The notes under the pieces are model-generated. The model was given only the letters and a program-made list of their open reading frames with translations. It made no database searches and was not told the origin of the DNA. Source: Neisseria subflava (GTDB lineage Bacteria; Pseudomonadota; Gammaproteobacteria; Burkholderiales; Neisseriaceae). Taken from it: 64,000 bases of DNA. The first letter of the stretch is position 1, and each line of letters starts with the position of its first letter. Shown here one piece after another: positions 10,803 through 50,570 of this stretch. Position numbers and translations under genes: made by a program. Where the stretch lies: positions 682,001 to 746,000 of the forward strand of contig NZ_POXP01000001.1 of NCBI RefSeq assembly GCF_003044935.1, in the 5' to 3' direction.

Positions 10803-11984
10803 ATGAAAATCAAAAACTTAAAACTGCATAATGTTGGTGGAATTCCATTTTTATCACTGGAGAATTTAAATCAAAATTGTAATTTAATATGTGGAGAAAA
10901 TGGGGTGGGAAAAACAAATATATTAGATTCAATAGCTTCCTTATATTCAAGTTTTAATAATAATATACTTTTAAGTAGATCTGGCTGTGATTCAGGAAAT
11001 ATTGAAGCAGAAATAATGTTTTCTGAAGAGGGTGAAGAAAATAAATCAATTTCCATGTCCATTACAAAAAGAAAACCAGACAACAGCTCATGGGTTAGGT
11101 GTGAACTATCTGATTATGATAAAAAATTATTATACTTAAAAGTGAATAGAGTATTTGAATATCAGGCACAAAATAGTATAGAAGCAGATCCTAAAGATAT
11201 TACTGGAGAGCGCAATCTTTCGGGGTTAAAAAATGAAAAACTAAAATCATGGTTTATCAATAGGCATCTACATTCAGCGCATGAGGGTAATTTAACTAAT
11301 ACACAGAAAGAAAATTTCAAACTTGCTGTAGATTGTTTTGCAAAGCTAAACTCTGATTATTCATTTAAAAAAACTACAACAGAAAACGAAATAATTGTAA
11401 GTTCACCAACTGGTGATATATATTTCGAATACCTATCTTCTGGTTTTAAATCAATAATTTTTATTCTACTTGGGATAATAAGAGAATTAGAATTTCGTTT
11501 TAATCATGATAATAATGCCATTCTTGCAAAGGATTTTGATGGGATAATCTTAATTGATGAAGTGGAACTTCACTTACATCCTGAATGGCAAGGCCGGATT
11601 ATTAGCATACTAAAAGAAACTTTTCCTAAGGTTCAGTTTTTTATTACAACTCATAGCCCTCATGTCGTTCAAACAGCAGAAAAAGACGAGGTGATCGCCC
11701 TTCAAAGAACACAGGAAAATAATATAACTCGAAGAGAATTGCTTAATTCTAAATATGGCTATCAAGGATGGACTATAGAAGAAATTTTAGAAGACATAAT
11801 GGGAATGCCTACTTTGCGGACTGATTTATATATGAATCTTAAACAAGAATTTGATAAGGCTTTGGATGAAAAAAATAAAAATTTAGCTGAGTCTGCATAT
11901 GCTGAATTAAATGAAATGCTTCATCCAGATTTTCCCCTGCGTCCTATTTTGAAACTTCAATTAGATACATTGCTGGATAACTAA
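10803..11984 (+). CDS. ptuA: Septu-like defence ATPase PtuA
   Basis: A 393-residue SMC/RecF/OLD-like ATPase of the AAA_21 kind. It has Walker A GENGVGKTN (31-39), a signature-like LSSGFKS (211-217), Walker B IILIDEVELHLHPEW (248-262), and a switch THSPHVV (283-289). The C-terminal part (310-393) is helical and carries no extra nuclease domain. One base separates it from the HNH gene, giving the PtuA-PtuB order of the Septu anti-phage system, in which PtuA assembles with PtuB and ATP is thought to control the nuclease. The gene is visibly A/T-rich, lacks any DUS, and differs sharply in codon use from alaS and ygfZ, so it was probably acquired horizontally. No reverse transcriptase is present, so this is not the retron-associated form. 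Confidence 0.8.
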   Translation: MKIKNLKLHNVGGIPFLSLENLNQNCNLICGENGVGKTNILDSIASLYSSFNNNILLSRSGCDSGNIEAEIMFSEEGEENKSISMSITKRKPDNSSWVRCELSDYDKKLLYLKVNRVFEYQAQNSIEADPKDITGERNLSGLKNEKLKSWFINRHLHSAHEGNLTNTQKENFKLAVDCFAKLNSDYSFKKTTTENEIIVSSPTGDIYFEYLSSGFKSIIFILLGIIRELEFRFNHDNNAILAKDFDGIILIDEVELHLHPEWQGRIISILKETFPKVQFFITTHSPHVVQTAEKDEVIALQRTQENNITRRELLNSKYGYQGWTIEEILEDIMGMPTLRTDLYMNLKQEFDKALDEKNKNLAESAYAELNEMLHPDFPLRPILKLQLDTLLDN

Positions 11985-11985
11985 A

Positions 11986-12729
11986 ATGATAAAACTAACA
12001 AGATTGGACAAACCTGAAACCCTAACAGAAGATATAATGAAGGAGCTAAGGACTAGATTTATAAACGAACAAAAACCTGTTTGGAAAAGAGAGGATATAT
12101 ATCAAACTCTACTTGAAAGCAGTAATAAAAAATGTGCTTATTGTGGATGTGTAATAAACATTGAGGATTCATACATGGAAGTTGAGCATTTCTATCCTAA
12201 AAGTTTATATCCTAGTGAGGTAATTAGTTGGGAAAATCTTCTACCAATATGTAAGAGGTGTAATAGTTCAAAAGGAAATTTTGATACTAAAAGTAATCCA
12301 TTTATAAATCCATATGATAATGATCCAAAAGATCATCTGTGCTTGGAAGCTTATAGATTATACCCAAAGAATAGTTCTATTCATGGAGAAAATACGATAG
12401 CAAAACTTAAATTAAATGATCATGAAAAACTAGGGGTATCAATTTATAAATTTTGCAATGAGCTTCTTCAAAAATTGGAACAACTATTAATACAATTAAA
12501 AGAAAGCAAGGATATATCTATACGCCATGATGAACTCCTAGTTGCTATTCTTTCCAATTGCCAAGAATCTTCTCCTTTTACCGCTTTTGCTGCATCACAA
12601 CTACATACATCATCCATTTATAAAGAAATAAAAGAAATATTCATAAATAAAAATAAATGGACTGACGAATTATCATCCCTTGACAGTAATTCTAGGAAAT
12701 TCACTCTTGATAGTAGAAGCAAGCCGTAG
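11986..12729 (+). CDS. ptuB: Septu-like HNH endonuclease PtuB
   Basis: A 247-residue HNH nuclease of the PtuB/TIGR02646 type. It has zinc-binding CAYC (50-53) and CKRC (89-92), catalytic-region EVEHFYPKS (65-73; His68), and ENLLPICKRCNSSKGN (83-98), the usual H-N-H layout. A helical C-terminal half follows (140-247). Translation probably couples to ptuA, one base upstream. In characterised Septu systems PtuB supplies the DNA-cutting activity. It shares the A/T-rich composition of ptuA and also lacks DUS, so the pair moved together. The target here is unknown. Confidence 0.8.
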   Translation: MIKLTRLDKPETLTEDIMKELRTRFINEQKPVWKREDIYQTLLESSNKKCAYCGCVINIEDSYMEVEHFYPKSLYPSEVISWENLLPICKRCNSSKGNFDTKSNPFINPYDNDPKDHLCLEAYRLYPKNSSIHGENTIAKLKLNDHEKLGVSIYKFCNELLQKLEQLLIQLKESKDISIRHDELLVAILSNCQESSPFTAFAASQLHTSSIYKEIKEIFINKNKWTDELSSLDSNSRKFTLDSRSKP

Positions 12730-28154: not shown

Positions 28155-28190
28155 AGGCCGTCTGAAACATTAGATTGTTTCAGACGGCCT
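28155..28190. terminator. DUS-pair terminator
   Basis: AGGCCGTCTGAAAC and GTTTCAGACGGCCT pair around an eight-base loop. It lies between the secreted-protein gene and the converging HD-Pnk gene. Confidence 0.75.
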
Positions 28191-28212: not shown

Positions 28213-29346
28213 TTAAGAAGAGACTACAAAATCCACTGTATGCGCTTCACTGTAATCAGGGATTTCCAGCTTTTCTATCATGCGGTGCAACACATCATTC
28301 GGAACAGAATGTTCGCGGTTACGGTTTTGCGATAGTAATTGCGTGTAAGGCACTTCCAAATAAATGAGATGCACACGTGCGCCGTAATCGGCAAACATCG
28401 GCAGCCATTTGCTGCGCAGGTCGCGGTTAAGATTGGTCGCATTAAAGACAAATGACGTACGGGCTCGCAGGTATTCTTTTGCCTGCTCTTTACCCAAACG
28501 CACTGCTTCGGCGGTATGTTTGGAATCTGCAGGATTGAGTTTGCGCTCACGGCGAATCTCATCCAGCGACAGCATAGGCAGATGGGCAAGATGTTGCCTG
28601 ATGTAACTGTCTTTGCCGCTACCTGCTATGGCGCACATGGCGTACACATCGAAGGTCTGATCATCAAATGGCTGATAATCCGGCATTTCGCTACGGCCGT
28701 TAAGATAGAGATAGCGTCCGTAGTAGCTGGCGAACGTACGTGCCTTACCCCAACAAGCGTTTTCTTCACAGAGTTCACGAAACAAATCAATGCGCAGCAA
28801 AATATCCTGTTGATCGCAACATATACGACCCAGTACATCAGCTTTAGCAAGCATGGCAAGATGCGCAGTATTGACCTGCAAACTGGCCACTATGACAGCT
28901 CGATCAGGATTAGGCTTATTAATCGCCCATAAGGGCAATCCGTGCAAGCGCACGAGTTTGGCGATTGCTTCTCTTACGGCAAATGGAGCGGCAAGTTCGG
29001 TATACAGCAAAGTACGGGCGGTATGCTCACCTTTTTTTGCGTGATGCGGCGAAACGATACGCTCTTTGCCGTTTTCTATTTCACTCTTGGTCGTACTGCG
29101 TTTTTCCACATCATGCAGCATGGCGGCAGCAAACAGAATATGCTGCTCCTGTCCATCAAGCGCTTGGAACTCGGGCAGTTGTAAAAGGGCTTCGCATACC
29201 ATTTTGGTATGCGTAAATACATCGCCTTCGGCATGCCACTCAGGGTCTTGCGGAACGTCCTTCATATCGGCAAACCAGCTGAAACGACGTTCTAAGGCTT
29301 GCCAATCAGGAAGTTGACCGGGTATGTAATATGGGAATGTCCACAT
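28213..29346 (-). CDS. HD-domain / polynucleotide kinase (HD-Pnk) RNA end-healing enzyme
   Basis: A 377-residue two-domain enzyme from ATG 29346 (a longer frame to 29460 would run into the ligase gene). Residues about 35-170 form an HD phosphohydrolase with His38, His46, LHD at 77-79 and HHAKKGEH at 101-108. Residues 235-377 form a P-loop kinase: AIAGSGKDS (239-247), LSLDEIRRE (259-267, Asp262 as in T4 Pnk) and RNREHSVPND (341-350) as the lid. Runella HD-Pnk, the known relative, removes 3'-phosphates and phosphorylates 5'-OH RNA ends. It follows the RNA ligase gene by 32 bases in the same direction, so the two likely heal and seal broken RNA. Confidence 0.85.
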   Translation of the reverse strand: MWTFPYYIPGQLPDWQALERRFSWFADMKDVPQDPEWHAEGDVFTHTKMVCEALLQLPEFQALDGQEQHILFAAAMLHDVEKRSTTKSEIENGKERIVSPHHAKKGEHTARTLLYTELAAPFAVREAIAKLVRLHGLPLWAINKPNPDRAVIVASLQVNTAHLAMLAKADVLGRICCDQQDILLRIDLFRELCEENACWGKARTFASYYGRYLYLNGRSEMPDYQPFDDQTFDVYAMCAIAGSGKDSYIRQHLAHLPMLSLDEIRRERKLNPADSKHTAEAVRLGKEQAKEYLRARTSFVFNATNLNRDLRSKWLPMFADYGARVHLIYLEVPYTQLLSQNRNREHSVPNDVLHRMIEKLEIPDYSEAHTVDFVVSS

Positions 29347-29378
29347 AATTGTCTTTCTTATTATTAGATAATTGGACT

Positions 29379-30182
29379 TCAGGCCGTCTGAAACTGCCAG
29401 CTTTGCCAATGGTATTTGTCGTAATCGATAAGACGGGCAGGCTTCCAAGTTTTCGTCCAATGAACGTCGGTTTTAACGTGTTTGGCTCGCACCAATTTGA
29501 AAAGATTATCAAATTCATTGGATTGAACAGGCAGGTTGCCGTTGTTGGTGGCAAAATCAGTTGCATTACGGATAACAAAACCTTCACTGCAAGCCGCTCC
29601 TGTTTTCGGATCGTAGCCGCCAAGCTTGCCGGCAGTTTGTACGCTGTCCGTCCACGTCTCCCCCAAATTAGCGGCAAGCCATTGCGCTAAAGCAATATCT
29701 TCATTGGCGTATTTTTGAGTGAAATCTGCAAGCGGCTGGACAATGGGGATTTCTGGTACAGTCGGAAAATCAAACAGCTGCGCATAAAATTTAACCTCTT
29801 CCCATGAAAGCCAATGTCCGCCACGGCGGACTGCAAACAGGTAAAAATAGCTTTCCAGTTGTGAATAGGCAATCGAATGAATGCCATACAGATTCTCGCC
29901 AAAAAGTTCCAGATCGCCTAAATCATCTTTGATTTGCTGCCATCGTTGCAGCAAAGGTTTATCCCACGGATGCTGGGTAGGCGCAGCATGACTACGGGCA
30001 TAGAGGCCGTGTGCGGCAAAGCAGTTGTTTTGCCCATCTAATTTTTCGGTTAAAACCAATTTCGGCAGTGAGGCAAAATATGAAAGAAAGCCGCGCGGCA
30101 TAAAACGGTCGTCAGAAGTAGTACCGAGGCTGATGGGCGCGTGCAGGCTGCGGGCGTATTTTTGAGGTTCGGTTGTCGTCAT
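29379..30182 (-). CDS. ATP-dependent RNA ligase
   Basis: A 267-residue nucleotidyltransferase-fold ligase. Motif I is EKLDGQN (46-52), with Lys47 as the adenylated residue. ELFGENLYGIHS (92-103) is motif III/IIIa, SEGFVIRN (199-206) motif IV, and FKLVRAKH (228-235) motif V. It joins 3'-OH and 5'-phosphate RNA ends through an AMP intermediate. The start follows AAAGGAAAAAA. The HD-Pnk gene follows 32 bases downstream, with only a DUS between, so an operon for RNA repair is likely. Codon use is neisserial, unlike ptuAB. The damaged RNA substrate is unknown; tRNA cut by a toxin is a reasonable guess. Confidence 0.85.
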   Translation of the reverse strand: MTTTEPQKYARSLHAPISLGTTSDDRFMPRGFLSYFASLPKLVLTEKLDGQNNCFAAHGLYARSHAAPTQHPWDKPLLQRWQQIKDDLGDLELFGENLYGIHSIAYSQLESYFYLFAVRRGGHWLSWEEVKFYAQLFDFPTVPEIPIVQPLADFTQKYANEDIALAQWLAANLGETWTDSVQTAGKLGGYDPKTGAACSEGFVIRNATDFATNNGNLPVQSNEFDNLFKLVRAKHVKTDVHWTKTWKPARLIDYDKYHWQSWQFQTA

Positions 30183-47128: not shown

Positions 47129-50100
47129 TTACTTAACCATCACCCTTTCTTTCAAAGTCTTCAATACGTTCTTCACTGTATTAATCCGCACTTCGATATT
47201 TTCCATCTCTGCGGTAAATCGCAGCTTATCCGCGCCGGCAAGGCGGTATCTTTTGTCGTTTTGAATCAGCAGGATGATTTCGGTTGGATCGACATTGTTG
47301 TTTTTTCCAAAGGTTACCGTTACCGCTTCGCTGGTCGCATCAATGGCATCGATACCCAATTCTTTTGCCATAAGCCGTAAGTGGTGGCTTTCGATGAGGG
47401 TTTTGACGGGTTGTTCGGGCAGACCGAAGCGGTCGACCAGTTCTTCATGTATGGCGTTGATTTGCTGCACGGTTTCGCAGACGGCGAGGCGTTTGTAGAG
47501 GACGAGGCGCTCGTGAATGTCGGAGCAGTAGTCTTCAGGCAATAATGCCGGGCTGTGCAGTTTGATTTCGGTGGTGATGCCCAGCGGTGCGTCGAGGTCG
47601 GGCTGGCGGCCTTTTTTGAGGTCGCGCACGGCTTGTTTGAGCATTTCGGTGTAGAGCGTGAAGCCGACCTGTATCATTTCACCGGATTGTCCTTCGCCAA
47701 GGATTTCGCCTGCGCCGCGGATTTCCAAATCCTGCATGGCTAGGGTGAAACCCGCGCCGAGTTCGTCTGCCGCCGCGATGGCATCGAGGCGTTTTTCTGC
47801 GTCTTTGGTGATGTATTCGGGCGTGAGCAGGTAGGCGTAGGCTTGGTGGTGGCTGCGGCCGACGCGTCCGCGCAGCTGGTGCAGTTGTGCCAGCCCGAAT
47901 TTGTCGGCGCGGTTGATGATGATGGTGTTGGCGTTGGGGATGTCAATGCCGGTTTCGATGATGGTAGAACAGAGCAACACGTTGAATCGTTGCTGTAAAA
48001 AGTCGCGCATCACTTGTTCCAACTCGCGCTCGCGCAGTTGTCCATGTGCCACGCCGATGCGGGCTTCAGGCAGCAGGGTTTCGAGCCGCTCGCGCATATT
48101 TTCAATCGTATCCACTTCATTGTGCAGGAAAAACACTTGTCCGCCGCGTTTGAGTTCGCGCAATACGGCTTCGCGCACGCTGCCTTCGCTGAAGGGTTTG
48201 ACAAAGGTTTTGACGGCGAGGCGGCGGCTGGGCGCGGTAGTAATCAGCGAGAAGTCGCGCAGACCTTCGAGCGCCATGCTGAGGGTACGCGGAATCGGCG
48301 TGGCGGTCATGGTGAGGATATCGACATTGGCGCGCAGGCGTTTGAGTTGCTCTTTTTGGCGCACGCCGAAGCGGTGTTCTTCATCGATAATCACTAAACC
48401 TAAATTTTTGAATTTGATTTCGTCCTGCACCAGTTTGTGCGTGCCGATAACGATATCGACCGTGCCGTCCGCCATGCCTTCCAGCGCGGCTTTGGTGGCT
48501 TTACTGTTGTTGAAACGCGAAAGGCTGGCGACTTTCACAGGGAAATCGGCGAAGCGGTCGGCGAAGTTTTGCGCGTGCTGCTCCACCAGAAGCGTGGTCG
48601 GGGCGAGTACGGCAACTTGTTTGCCACCCATCACCGCCACAAACGCGGCGCGCAGGGCGACTTCGGTTTTGCCGAAGCCGACATCGCCGCACACGAGGCG
48701 GTCCATAGGTTTCGCCTGTGTCAAATCTTTAATCACTGCGGCAATGGCGGCGGCCTGGTCTTCGGTTTCTTCATAGCCAAAACCGTCGGCAAACGCCTGA
48801 TAGTCCATCTCGTTGATTTCAAACTTGTGTCCCGATTGGGCGACGCGTTGGGCGTAGAGGTTGAGCAACTCGGCGGCGGTGTCGCGCGCTTTTTCGGCGG
48901 CTTTGCGTTTCGCCTTGTTCCACGCGCCGCTGCCGAGCTTGTGCAGGGCAACGTTTTCATGCGCCTGACCGGAGTAGCGGCTGATTAAATGCAGCTGCGA
49001 AACAGGCACATAAAGCTGCGCTTCGCCTGCGTATTCAAGCAACATCATTTCGTTGGTTTCGCCACCCAAGTCCATCGTTACCAAGCCCATATATCGGCCG
49101 ATGCCGTGTTCTTCGTGTACAACAGGATCGCCGATATTGATTTCGGCAAGGTCGCGCAACAGGCCGTCTGAAACGGCGGCGTGTTTCTTACGATGATGTT
49201 TGCGCGAGCGGGCGACATATTGATAAAGATCGGATTCGGTAAGGACCGCGATGTTTTGATCTTCTAATTTAAACCCGTAAGCCAACGGCGCCACTGTAAT
49301 CATCAGTGGCTCATGCGCCGACAAAAAGCCCTGCCAGTCGGACACGCTTTTGGCTTTCAAACCGTTTTGCTGTAAGAAACCGAGCATGGTTTCGCGCCGT
49401 CCCAAACTTTCAGCACACAACAAAATCCGTCCATCAAAGGCCGTCTGAAAATCTTTCAGTGCCTGCAACGGTTCATCTGCTTGGCGGTTGACGGCCACGT
49501 TTGGCAACGTATGTTCATCACCAAAAATATCCGGCAATACCTGACCATAATTTTTCAGACGGCCTGCAAAGACATCGGCAGAGAGATACAAATGCTGTGG
49601 AAGCAAAGGCGGATAAGTTTCATCGCCCTGCGCCATGGCATAACGCGATTTAACGTCGCTCCAAAAACGGTTTGCCTCGGCATGAACATCGCCCAAAGAG
49701 ACAAACAGCGCATCTTTGCCGATATAGTCAAACAGCGTTTCCAGCTCGTTTTCAAAAAACAGCGGCAGATAATATTCCACACCCGCACCGAAATGGCCGT
49801 TGCTGACGGCTTTGTACACAGCAGCATCGTTCGGATTGCCATCGACTTCCTCGCGGAAGCGGCTGCGGAAAATCTTTTGCGCCTCGCTGTCGGTGGGGAA
49901 CTCGTGTGCCGGCAGCAGGCGGATTTCGGAAACGGGGGAAATGGTGCGTTGCGTTTCAGTGTCAAAGGTTTTGATGCTGTCGATTTCATCGTCGAACAAA
50001 TCGATGCGGTATGGCATTTCGCTGCCCATCGGGAACAAATCGACAATGCCGCCGCGCACGGCAAACTCGCCTGCCGCGACAACATGGGAAACATGGTTAT

Positions 50101-50533
50101 AACCTGCATCCACCAAATCACTTTTCAGACGGCCTATATCCAAAGTCTGCCCCGTTTTCAGCCAAAACGTGCGCCCTGCCAGAAACGGCACAGGCGGCAG
50201 CTTCTGCATCGCCGTGGCAACCGGCACAAACAACACGTCCGCCGCGCCGCTCTTAATCTGCCATAAAGCCGAGAGCCGCTCCGATACCAAATCCTGATGC
50301 GGTGAAAAACGCTCGTAAGGCAGCGTTTCCCAGTCCGGCAGGAACACCGCCGTATCGTGCGGACGGAAAAACAGCCAGGCCGTCTGAAGGCGTAGCGCCT
50401 GTTCCGCATCTTGGGTCAAGACAACCTTGAGCTGCTTATGCGACAGATAACGCGCCAAAGCCAAGGGCAGCGAGCCTTGCGAAAGATTGAGCCAACGGGA
50501 TTTTTCACGGGGTTTGGGAATTGGATAGGTCAT
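47129..50533 (-). CDS. mfd: Transcription-repair coupling factor
   Basis: A 1134-residue DNA translocase that removes stalled RNA polymerase and recruits UvrA. Start taken as ATG 50533 (the longer frame begins with TTG at 50563). It has UvrB-like N-terminal domains, an RNA-polymerase-interacting region near VHEEHGIGRYMGLV, and RecG-like motor motifs CGDVGFGKTEVALRAAF (Walker A), VIIDEEHRFGVRQKE (DEEH) and TMTATPIPRTLSMAL, plus a C-terminal TRCF domain. Length is typical. Five exact AG-DUS copies lie in its 5' third (49161, 49438, 49554, 50124, 50377), an unusual density for one gene. Confidence 0.97.
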   Translation of the reverse strand: MTYPIPKPREKSRWLNLSQGSLPLALARYLSHKQLKVVLTQDAEQALRLQTAWLFFRPHDTAVFLPDWETLPYERFSPHQDLVSERLSALWQIKSGAADVLFVPVATAMQKLPPVPFLAGRTFWLKTGQTLDIGRLKSDLVDAGYNHVSHVVAAGEFAVRGGIVDLFPMGSEMPYRIDLFDDEIDSIKTFDTETQRTISPVSEIRLLPAHEFPTDSEAQKIFRSRFREEVDGNPNDAAVYKAVSNGHFGAGVEYYLPLFFENELETLFDYIGKDALFVSLGDVHAEANRFWSDVKSRYAMAQGDETYPPLLPQHLYLSADVFAGRLKNYGQVLPDIFGDEHTLPNVAVNRQADEPLQALKDFQTAFDGRILLCAESLGRRETMLGFLQQNGLKAKSVSDWQGFLSAHEPLMITVAPLAYGFKLEDQNIAVLTESDLYQYVARSRKHHRKKHAAVSDGLLRDLAEINIGDPVVHEEHGIGRYMGLVTMDLGGETNEMMLLEYAGEAQLYVPVSQLHLISRYSGQAHENVALHKLGSGAWNKAKRKAAEKARDTAAELLNLYAQRVAQSGHKFEINEMDYQAFADGFGYEETEDQAAAIAAVIKDLTQAKPMDRLVCGDVGFGKTEVALRAAFVAVMGGKQVAVLAPTTLLVEQHAQNFADRFADFPVKVASLSRFNNSKATKAALEGMADGTVDIVIGTHKLVQDEIKFKNLGLVIIDEEHRFGVRQKEQLKRLRANVDILTMTATPIPRTLSMALEGLRDFSLITTAPSRRLAVKTFVKPFSEGSVREAVLRELKRGGQVFFLHNEVDTIENMRERLETLLPEARIGVAHGQLRERELEQVMRDFLQQRFNVLLCSTIIETGIDIPNANTIIINRADKFGLAQLHQLRGRVGRSHHQAYAYLLTPEYITKDAEKRLDAIAAADELGAGFTLAMQDLEIRGAGEILGEGQSGEMIQVGFTLYTEMLKQAVRDLKKGRQPDLDAPLGITTEIKLHSPALLPEDYCSDIHERLVLYKRLAVCETVQQINAIHEELVDRFGLPEQPVKTLIESHHLRLMAKELGIDAIDATSEAVTVTFGKNNNVDPTEIILLIQNDKRYRLAGADKLRFTAEMENIEVRINTVKNVLKTLKERVMVK

Positions 50534-50570
50534 GACAAAACAGTTTGTAATAAGTAAATACAAGCACCAT

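Follow-up and report, generated by a model that had tools for sequence, protein, structure and literature searches.

An RNA ligase–HD-Pnk gene pair of Neisseria subflava, likely an RNA repair cassette, is patchily distributed and co-occurs with RtcB2-PrfH

The ligase and HD-Pnk genes

The window analysed here, a stretch of 64,000 nucleotides (nt) of a Neisseria subflava contig, carries on its minus strand a small ligase gene followed by a gene for an HD phosphoesterase fused to a polynucleotide kinase (HD-Pnk; Table 1). The two are exactly 32 nt apart (29347-29378), as given in the first-pass annotation of this DNA, which was made from the letters alone. That annotation also read the pair as healing and sealing RNA, and gene identities, linkage, motifs and folds all support this as the likeliest reading. 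The pair is known in kind; what is novel is its distribution and its co-occurrence with RtcB2-PrfH, described in the accessible text of two papers as a sporadic RNA repair system against ribotoxins (PMC9223846, PMC6514570).

Table 1. Features of the locus, in window coordinates
Feature	Position	Strand	Remarks
RNA-ligase-family gene (DRB0100-type, "class A")	29379-30182	minus	267 amino acids (aa)
Nucleotidyltransferase core of the ligase	29490-30062	minus	KLDG (K47), GEN (E96), EGFV (E200), FKLVR (K229)
HD-Pnk gene	28213-29346	minus	377 aa from ATG; N-terminal HD phosphoesterase and C-terminal polynucleotide kinase
HD phosphoesterase domain	28825-29235	minus	aa 38-174
Polynucleotide kinase domain	28222-28653	minus	aa 232-375
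DNA uptake sequence (DUS) core GCCGTCTGAA	29383-29392	plus	within the final codons of the ligase
Inverted DUS pair (hairpin)	28157-28188		3' of the HD-Pnk gene; marks the left boundary of the exchanged segment

The ligase matches the Pfam family RNA_ligase (PF09414; E 1.5e-22; 81 bits, cut-off 27) and has all the motifs picked out at first pass (KLDG, EGFVIR and FKLVRAK). Residues K47, E96, E200, G201 and K229 are unchanged throughout alignments A2, A3 and A5; we take KLDG, GEN, EGFV and FKLVR to be motifs I, III, IV and V, respectively. The protein can be aligned with DRB0100 of Deinococcus radiodurans from its N-terminus as far as motif V, and again in a C-terminal HV.T..HW stretch, which places it in class A. 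Identity is 35% over residues 8-145 and all motifs are common to the two, but DRB0100, at 210 aa, lacks much of the stretch found at about 150-195 in the window ligase.

Structure comparison puts the ligase fold closest to RNA ligases. Sequence and profile searches of the PDB with the ligase gave chance-level matches only, and no solved relative of the family can be reached by sequence profile. In Rnl2 a separate C-terminal domain follows the nucleotidyltransferase core, and in Rnl5, the Naegleria gruberi Rnl (NgrRnl) and DraRnl an N-terminal OB domain precedes motif I. The window ligase has the nucleotidyltransferase fold in common with T4 Rnl2 and NgrRnl but neither the C-terminal domain of the one nor the OB domain of the other. 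Its core stops near residue 231 of 267, leaving a tail of about 36 aa, and it was kept out of the Rnl2 class because no separate domain follows the core. Nor does it fall with Rnl5, NgrRnl and DraRnl: its motif I lysine is already at K47, and NgrRnl aligns only from residue 139. The protein amounts to an Rnl2-like nucleotidyltransferase core that lacks the additional domains of known RNA ligases, and from its motifs we predict ATP-dependent joining of RNA 3'-OH to 5'-PO4 ends. To our knowledge DRB0100 is the only member of this family to have been studied, and it showed no ligation.

The second protein has the AIAGSGKDS and LDEIRRE motifs of a Pnk-type P-loop kinase that the first reading had pointed out, and matches AAA_33 (PF13671, E 1.3e-19). 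Taken alone, its HD domain scores 18.4 bits against PF01966, under the cut-off of 22. The HD assignment holds despite this weak score because of the family alignment, in which H46, H78, D79, K82, H102 and D170 are invariant across 38 rows, and because the D. radiodurans homologue DRB0098 passes the HD cut-off (3.9e-13). Kinase residues G244-K245, D262, R265 and R344 are invariant in the family alignment as well; with an N-terminal HD domain, a C-terminal P-loop kinase and both metal-site and kinase residues kept, the protein is a member of the HD-Pnk family.

For the HD domain, profile A6 of this family finds the corresponding region of a solved poly-A polymerase (E 6e-7); for the kinase domain, the profile hits are tRNA(Sec) kinase (6e-15), chain 4gp7 (the CthPnkp kinase; 8e-14) and T4 PNK (4e-9). 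AlphaFold2 models the protein with a predicted local distance difference test (pLDDT) score of 95.9; the kinase fold is closest to CthPnkp and T4 PNK, and the domain can be aligned to the latter. An Asp (D246), not Ser or Thr, follows the P-loop lysine, as it does in at least 90% of rows, and an Ala stands at what is presumably the position of T4 D85, which varies in the family. Against the bacterial Pnkp model TIGR04075 the protein scores 35.4 bits (cut-off 750) and is not a full-length Pnkp. The longest open frame begins at TTG 29460, within the ligase gene; ATG 29346 is the likelier start because near relatives have the start MWTFP in common. The HD-Pnk of Runella slithyformis, which has the same two-domain order, reportedly heals ends by converting 2',3'-cyclic-PO4/5'-OH to 3'-OH/5'-PO4, and by analogy the window protein is predicted to have 5' kinase and 2',3'-phosphoesterase activity.

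Both genes are under purifying selection. The ratio of nonsynonymous to synonymous substitution rates (dN/dS) is 0.02-0.11 for the within-genus pairs computed, which excludes chance open frames; this range leaves aside the ligase pair with genome G022, whose out-of-frame coordinates gave no usable value, and the cross-genus pairs (dN/dS up to 0.25, with dS high or saturated). The base use of the two genes had been called native, which is only partly right: GC content at third codon positions (GC3) is 0.47 in each but 0.56-0.63 in four neighbours, and the HD frame is fourth lowest among the 42 non-overlapping open reading frames (ORFs) of at least 150 aa in the window. A DUS had also been placed between the genes; it exists, but lies in the ligase's final codons rather than strictly between the two. 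In all, the window has 91 DUS cores (GCCGTCTGAA), 77 within the 12-mer AGGCCGTCTGAA and 4 within ATGCCGTCTGAA, and by these 12-mer counts it belongs to a genome of the dialect presumably named AG-DUS. Scanning the window for Rfam families and tRNAs returned nothing, and neither protein matched a PADLOC defence model at E up to 1.

Distribution and mobility

Among 83 genomes of the Neisseriaceae the ligase is found in 13, one of them with a remnant (G033), and HD-Pnk in 18, one of them a partial match (G073, residues 30-189) that was scored as present. Both genes are of the window type in 12 of the 83 and adjoin in 9 of these, including G022, where the ligase match begins at residue 6. In G082 the two lie about 0.7 kb apart, with a 96-aa ORF between them that has no Pfam match (L035:5436-5726); in G065 and G040 the ligase is split and the genes are far apart; and G033 has ligase fragments only. 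The G033 site that corresponds to window 28213-30182 (L038:5753-7752) has an opposite-strand frame where the window has HD-Pnk; this frame matches Deam_C, DUF6911 and, weakly, MafB19-deam, and resembles a polymorphic toxin. In another genus (g10) HD-Pnk occurs in 6 genomes (one partial match), with a ligase of a different class, class B, directly upstream in all five examined.

The site of the pair in the window is common to G044, G022 and the G033 remnant; other carriers have the pair elsewhere, in some cases sharing just the corC flank. The close relative G045 has an empty site, with 467 other bases in place of the pair, and homology ends at window 28167, inside the DUS hairpin, to restart at the corC stop codon (30242). 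In a ligase tree of 113 rows (after thinning of near-copies; method "quick") the neisserial ligases form one clade (SH-like approximate likelihood ratio test, SH-aLRT, 97) nested among ligases of Bacteroidota and phages (100), and the enterobacterial ligases are separate from them (98). Plasmid and phage searches found relatives, every one below 60% identity. A patchy pair at several sites, with an empty site in a close relative and a Bacteroidota-like ligase, is not the settled part of the genome that the first-pass annotation took it for. We infer from these sequence comparisons that the pair may have come by transfer across phyla and then been exchanged via transformation.

Linkage of the two genes extends far beyond the family. 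A scan of 84,980 species genomes confirmed at least 525 HD-Pnk relatives, and 80 loci were retained. A full match to a ligase, either DRB0100-like (class A) or of the g10 type (class B), is present in 76 of the 80; L089 and L113 have a ligase fragment only, and L119 and L133 have none. The nearest ligase of any size is upstream on the same strand in 71 of the 80 (41 class A, 30 class B; L124 was not placed), most of these overlapping HD-Pnk or sitting less than 250 bases away. In a second sample (L332-L345, which includes the window's own locus) a ligase of class A or B lies no more than 1.5 kb from HD-Pnk at all 14 loci. Other RNA repair genes near the pair in the 80 loci are KptA/Tpt1 (two Spirosoma, two Runella), PrfH alone (one Crocinitomix) and RtcB with RtcA (one locus of Caulobacterales). 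A neighbour cluster of 13 loci was judged to consist largely of frames on the reverse strand of the two genes themselves, and was dropped. In a phylum sample of 398 genomes the HD-Pnk profile matched 41, of which 7 across the kinase part; the remaining 34 matches are confined to the HD part (about positions 14-199), and those genomes were left out of the HD-Pnk count.

The ligase was also confirmed in at least 92 viral contigs, of which 80 were retained. Several large ones have HD-Pnk too, beside or near the ligase (L145, L152, L153, L156, L161, L199, L222 and L230). Some class-A ligases are longer (about 337-360 aa) and have an extra N-terminal part (L056:7161-8243 and viral L205, L206, L208-L210, L212, L218, L219 and L224), which in L056 looks HNH-like by eye; HNH-ligase fusions are mentioned in the accessible text of PMC7824862.

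Co-occurrence with RtcB2-PrfH

The window ends at contig position 746000, and the same genome has an rtcB2-prfH operon at G000:C1:872428-874127 whose genes exceed the NCBIfam cut-offs (TIGR03073 and TIGR03072). Across the family RtcB2 occurs in 18 of 18 HD-Pnk genomes vs 16 of the 65 others (Fisher 2.9e-9, relatedness ignored), and in the genus alone in 8/8 vs 5/38. RtcB2 was told from other RtcB proteins by its split match (about 1-75 plus 140-425); G015 (a fragment, with a PrfH frame beside it) and G078 (another type) were scored as lacking it, giving 34/83 in total. When 20 RtcB2 stretches were taken, PrfH adjoined RtcB2 in 10/10 from HD-Pnk genomes and in 5/10 of the others. Of these 15 cases 14 came from the frames picked in the stretches and the last, G021, from the PrfH search of the order sample; in the five stretches where PrfH was not seen, longer frames on the opposite strand may mask it, or the gene may be absent. 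In G040, G082 and G066 rtcB2 and prfH are separated by a gene whose product has 217-258 aa (MKIISKFKD...; L379:5924-6616 and L382:5677-6330; also in L381). It has no Pfam match in the two cases scanned and could be a third operon member. The accessory genes of RFH-RtcB listed in the accessible text of PMC6514570 include a TPR gene and a Pol-beta gene.

The association recurs at wider range. In an order sample of 399 genomes HD-Pnk is present in 11, PrfH in 17 and both in 9 (p 2.0e-12). The threshold for calling PrfH was 214 bits, which 17 genomes reach; the match after these drops to 137 bits, and 374/399 genomes pass the E limit for PrfH because the 137-bit level is that of ordinary release factors. 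With the family removed, PrfH is found in 5/7 HD-Pnk genomes vs 8/380 others (3.7e-7). The five belong to three other families and have HD-Pnk and PrfH on different contigs in each case. All five have class-B ligases, so the RtcB2-PrfH link does not track ligase class. A chromosomal copy of the pair is found in 981 of 5426 complete E. coli genomes; the intact rtcB2-prfH junction (queried with a stretch missing from truncated strains sampled) is in 2689, and junction or pair is in 2721. The junction is present in 949/981 (97%) of pair carriers vs 1740/4445 (39%) of non-carriers. In the one E. coli record examined for position the pair lies between emrB and luxS, and in the rows examined it is annotated as "RNA ligase family protein" plus "ATP-binding protein" or "AAA family ATPase". 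Finally, RtcB and PrfH are near the pair in 4 of the 80 loci of the broad scan (two Serratia, Mucilaginibacter and Taibaiella), where all four genes form one cluster. A role of the pair with RtcB2-PrfH was stated nowhere that we found in the open-licence PMC literature, a search that Burroughs and Aravind 2016 falls outside.

Comparison with known repair systems

The DRB0100-DRB0099-DRB0098 genes of D. radiodurans have the same order, on one strand, as the window pair. DRB0098 is 29% identical to the window HD-Pnk and has 5' kinase activity according to the accessible text of PMC1997131. The two loci differ in that a PARG gene (PF10021) separates ligase and HD-Pnk in D. radiodurans whereas the window has only 32 nt there, and in that the D. 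radiodurans operon is on a megaplasmid and belongs to a radiation response (PMC1274311, accessible text). In two Runella relatives (L079 and L084) a class-A ligase is directly upstream of HD-Pnk, as in the window; the two Runella and two Spirosoma loci that add KptA/Tpt1 are in genomes without a PrfH match. RtcB2-PrfH is sporadic like the pair, but RtcB2 seals without healing. The Pnkp1-Rnl-Hen1 system likewise repairs ribotoxin-cut RNA with a kinase-type protein and a ligase but comprises three proteins, including Hen1 (PMC4411300, in the part accessible).

Proposed function

Healing and sealing of RNA by the pair is likely. Metal-independent ribotoxins leave 2',3'-cyclic-PO4 and 5'-OH ends, as stated in the accessible text of PMC9223846 and PMC9503650. 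The HD domain would strip 2',3'-cyclic, 3' or 2' phosphates from such cut RNA, the Pnk domain would phosphorylate the 5'-OH ends, and the small ATP-dependent ligase would join the resulting 3'-OH to 5'-PO4. RtcB2 instead seals cyclic-phosphate/5'-OH ends directly, without end healing, within a type of system by which ribosomes cut at the decoding centre are rescued and mended; after colicin E3 the RNA repaired is 16S rRNA. This system, in the account accessible in PMC9223846, guards E. coli against colicin E3 and not against the tRNA-cutting colicins E5 and D, which leaves room for a second repair route. We accept with fair but by no means firm confidence that the two genes form a mobile cassette for healing and sealing RNA ends, which stands beside an unlinked RtcB2-PrfH, so that two chemistries would be available against competitors' ribotoxins. 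The first-pass annotation had invoked ribotoxins together with phage-triggered anticodon nucleases. The association with RtcB2-PrfH points to damage of the translation machinery, in keeping with the ribotoxin part, but the anticodon-nuclease part finds no support, as discussed below.

Several findings weigh against this interpretation. An independent-pair tree test within the family was not significant (median p 0.5 and 0.125); it met no contrary pair but had too few informative ones, and its tree is of one gene (mfd) from a recombining group, with G004, G041 and G059 absent for want of a usable marker and G040 and G037 as short rows. The E. coli counts are clonal, and the contrast between pair carriers and non-carriers there has no lineage control. 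Two of the 11 HD-Pnk genomes in the order sample have no PrfH. In other phyla PrfH (at least 214 bits) is in 17/32 class-A and 0/17 class-B HD-Pnk genomes, counted in 49 of 50 genomes, with no matched controls and with three weaker PrfH matches in class B. The Runella and Spirosoma genomes searched gave no PrfH match, and in the window's own genome the pair and rtcB2-prfH are not linked. On the biochemical side, DRB0100 self-adenylates with no DNA or RNA ligation detected, and HD mutants of DRB0098 kept their 3'-phosphatase signal (PMC1997131, accessible text).

A more elaborate scheme is conceivable and rather more doubtful. The two systems may be arms of one ribotoxin-survival kit, in which RtcB2 would seal fresh 16S rRNA cuts once PrfH has cleared the ribosome, and HD-Pnk and the ligase would seal cuts that RtcB2 cannot use, that is, ends already opened or trimmed, or tRNA cuts. 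Since HD-Pnk would destroy the substrate ends of RtcB2, keeping both would imply that they share out the work by RNA, site or time. The healing arm would be swappable across bacteria, combining ligase A or B with a neighbouring PARG, KptA or RtcB2-PrfH, and neisserial genomes would exchange it at DUS hairpins.

Among the alternatives, the one that we take most seriously, although we think it unlikely, is that the pair repairs only tRNA, after cuts by phage-triggered or toxin anticodon nucleases, like T4 Pnkp-Rnl1, and that the RtcB2-PrfH link is incidental. Relatives of the ligase are common in viral contigs, some with HD-Pnk alongside, and the lack of protection against colicins E5 and D (PMC9223846, accessible text) would leave space for another tRNA route. 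Against it, PF13166 (PrrC/RloC) is not associated with HD-Pnk in the family (4/18 HD-Pnk genomes vs 11/65 others, Fisher p 0.73), and the window's genome has no PF13166 match above cut-off; PADLOC has no match either, and the association that does exist is with a ribosome-rescue system instead. We give still less credence to the view of the pair as mobile or phage-derived cargo with little host function. Its patchiness, its several sites, the G033 remnant, the split ligases of G040 and G065 and the nesting of phage ligases near the neisserial ones all suit such a view; the strong purifying selection on both genes and the co-occurrence with RtcB2-PrfH do not.

A role in processing DNA ends, the original proposal for DRB0098-DRB0100, is also improbable. 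It draws on the Runella HD-Pnk, which is said to be an end-healing enzyme for DNA as well as RNA. The accessible texts add that DRB0098 phosphorylates DNA 5'-OH ends and that DRB0100 is radiation-induced (PMC1997131, PMC1274311), but in the former DRB0100 gave no DNA ligation, alone or with DRB0098 and DRB0099; besides, the ligase fold is closest to RNA ligases, and some neighbours of the pair are the RNA repair genes KptA, RtcB, PrfH and RtcA. Equally hard to favour is the idea that only HD-Pnk acts on ends and that the ligase-like nucleotidyltransferase yields a different product, for instance in end adenylation or capping. Self-adenylation of DRB0100 without detectable ligation (PMC1997131, accessible text) and the missing accessory domains of T4 Rnl2 and NgrRnl would fit it; against it stand the invariance of all ligase motifs, motif V included, and the tight coupling to a healing enzyme expected to make ligase-ready ends.

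If the preferred reading, a healing and sealing cassette that cooperates with RtcB2-PrfH, is correct, bacteria maintain complementary RNA repair chemistries against competitors' ribotoxins. It also indicates where to study the ligase: with its HD-Pnk, on RNA and in cells that carry RtcB2-PrfH. Because 981/5426 E. coli genomes carry the pair, this unassigned cassette becomes testable in E. coli.

Other features of the window

Two ORFs at 10803-12729 have a GC3 of 0.20-0.21, far under that of the other ORFs of the window, and are probably a recent import. For mfd (47129-50563), over 20 of the 83 family genomes give a match to the protein that is interrupted near residue 436. Such split Mfd proteins are mostly encoded within one longer frame (about 1160-1430 aa; 1156 here), with an insert of variable size.
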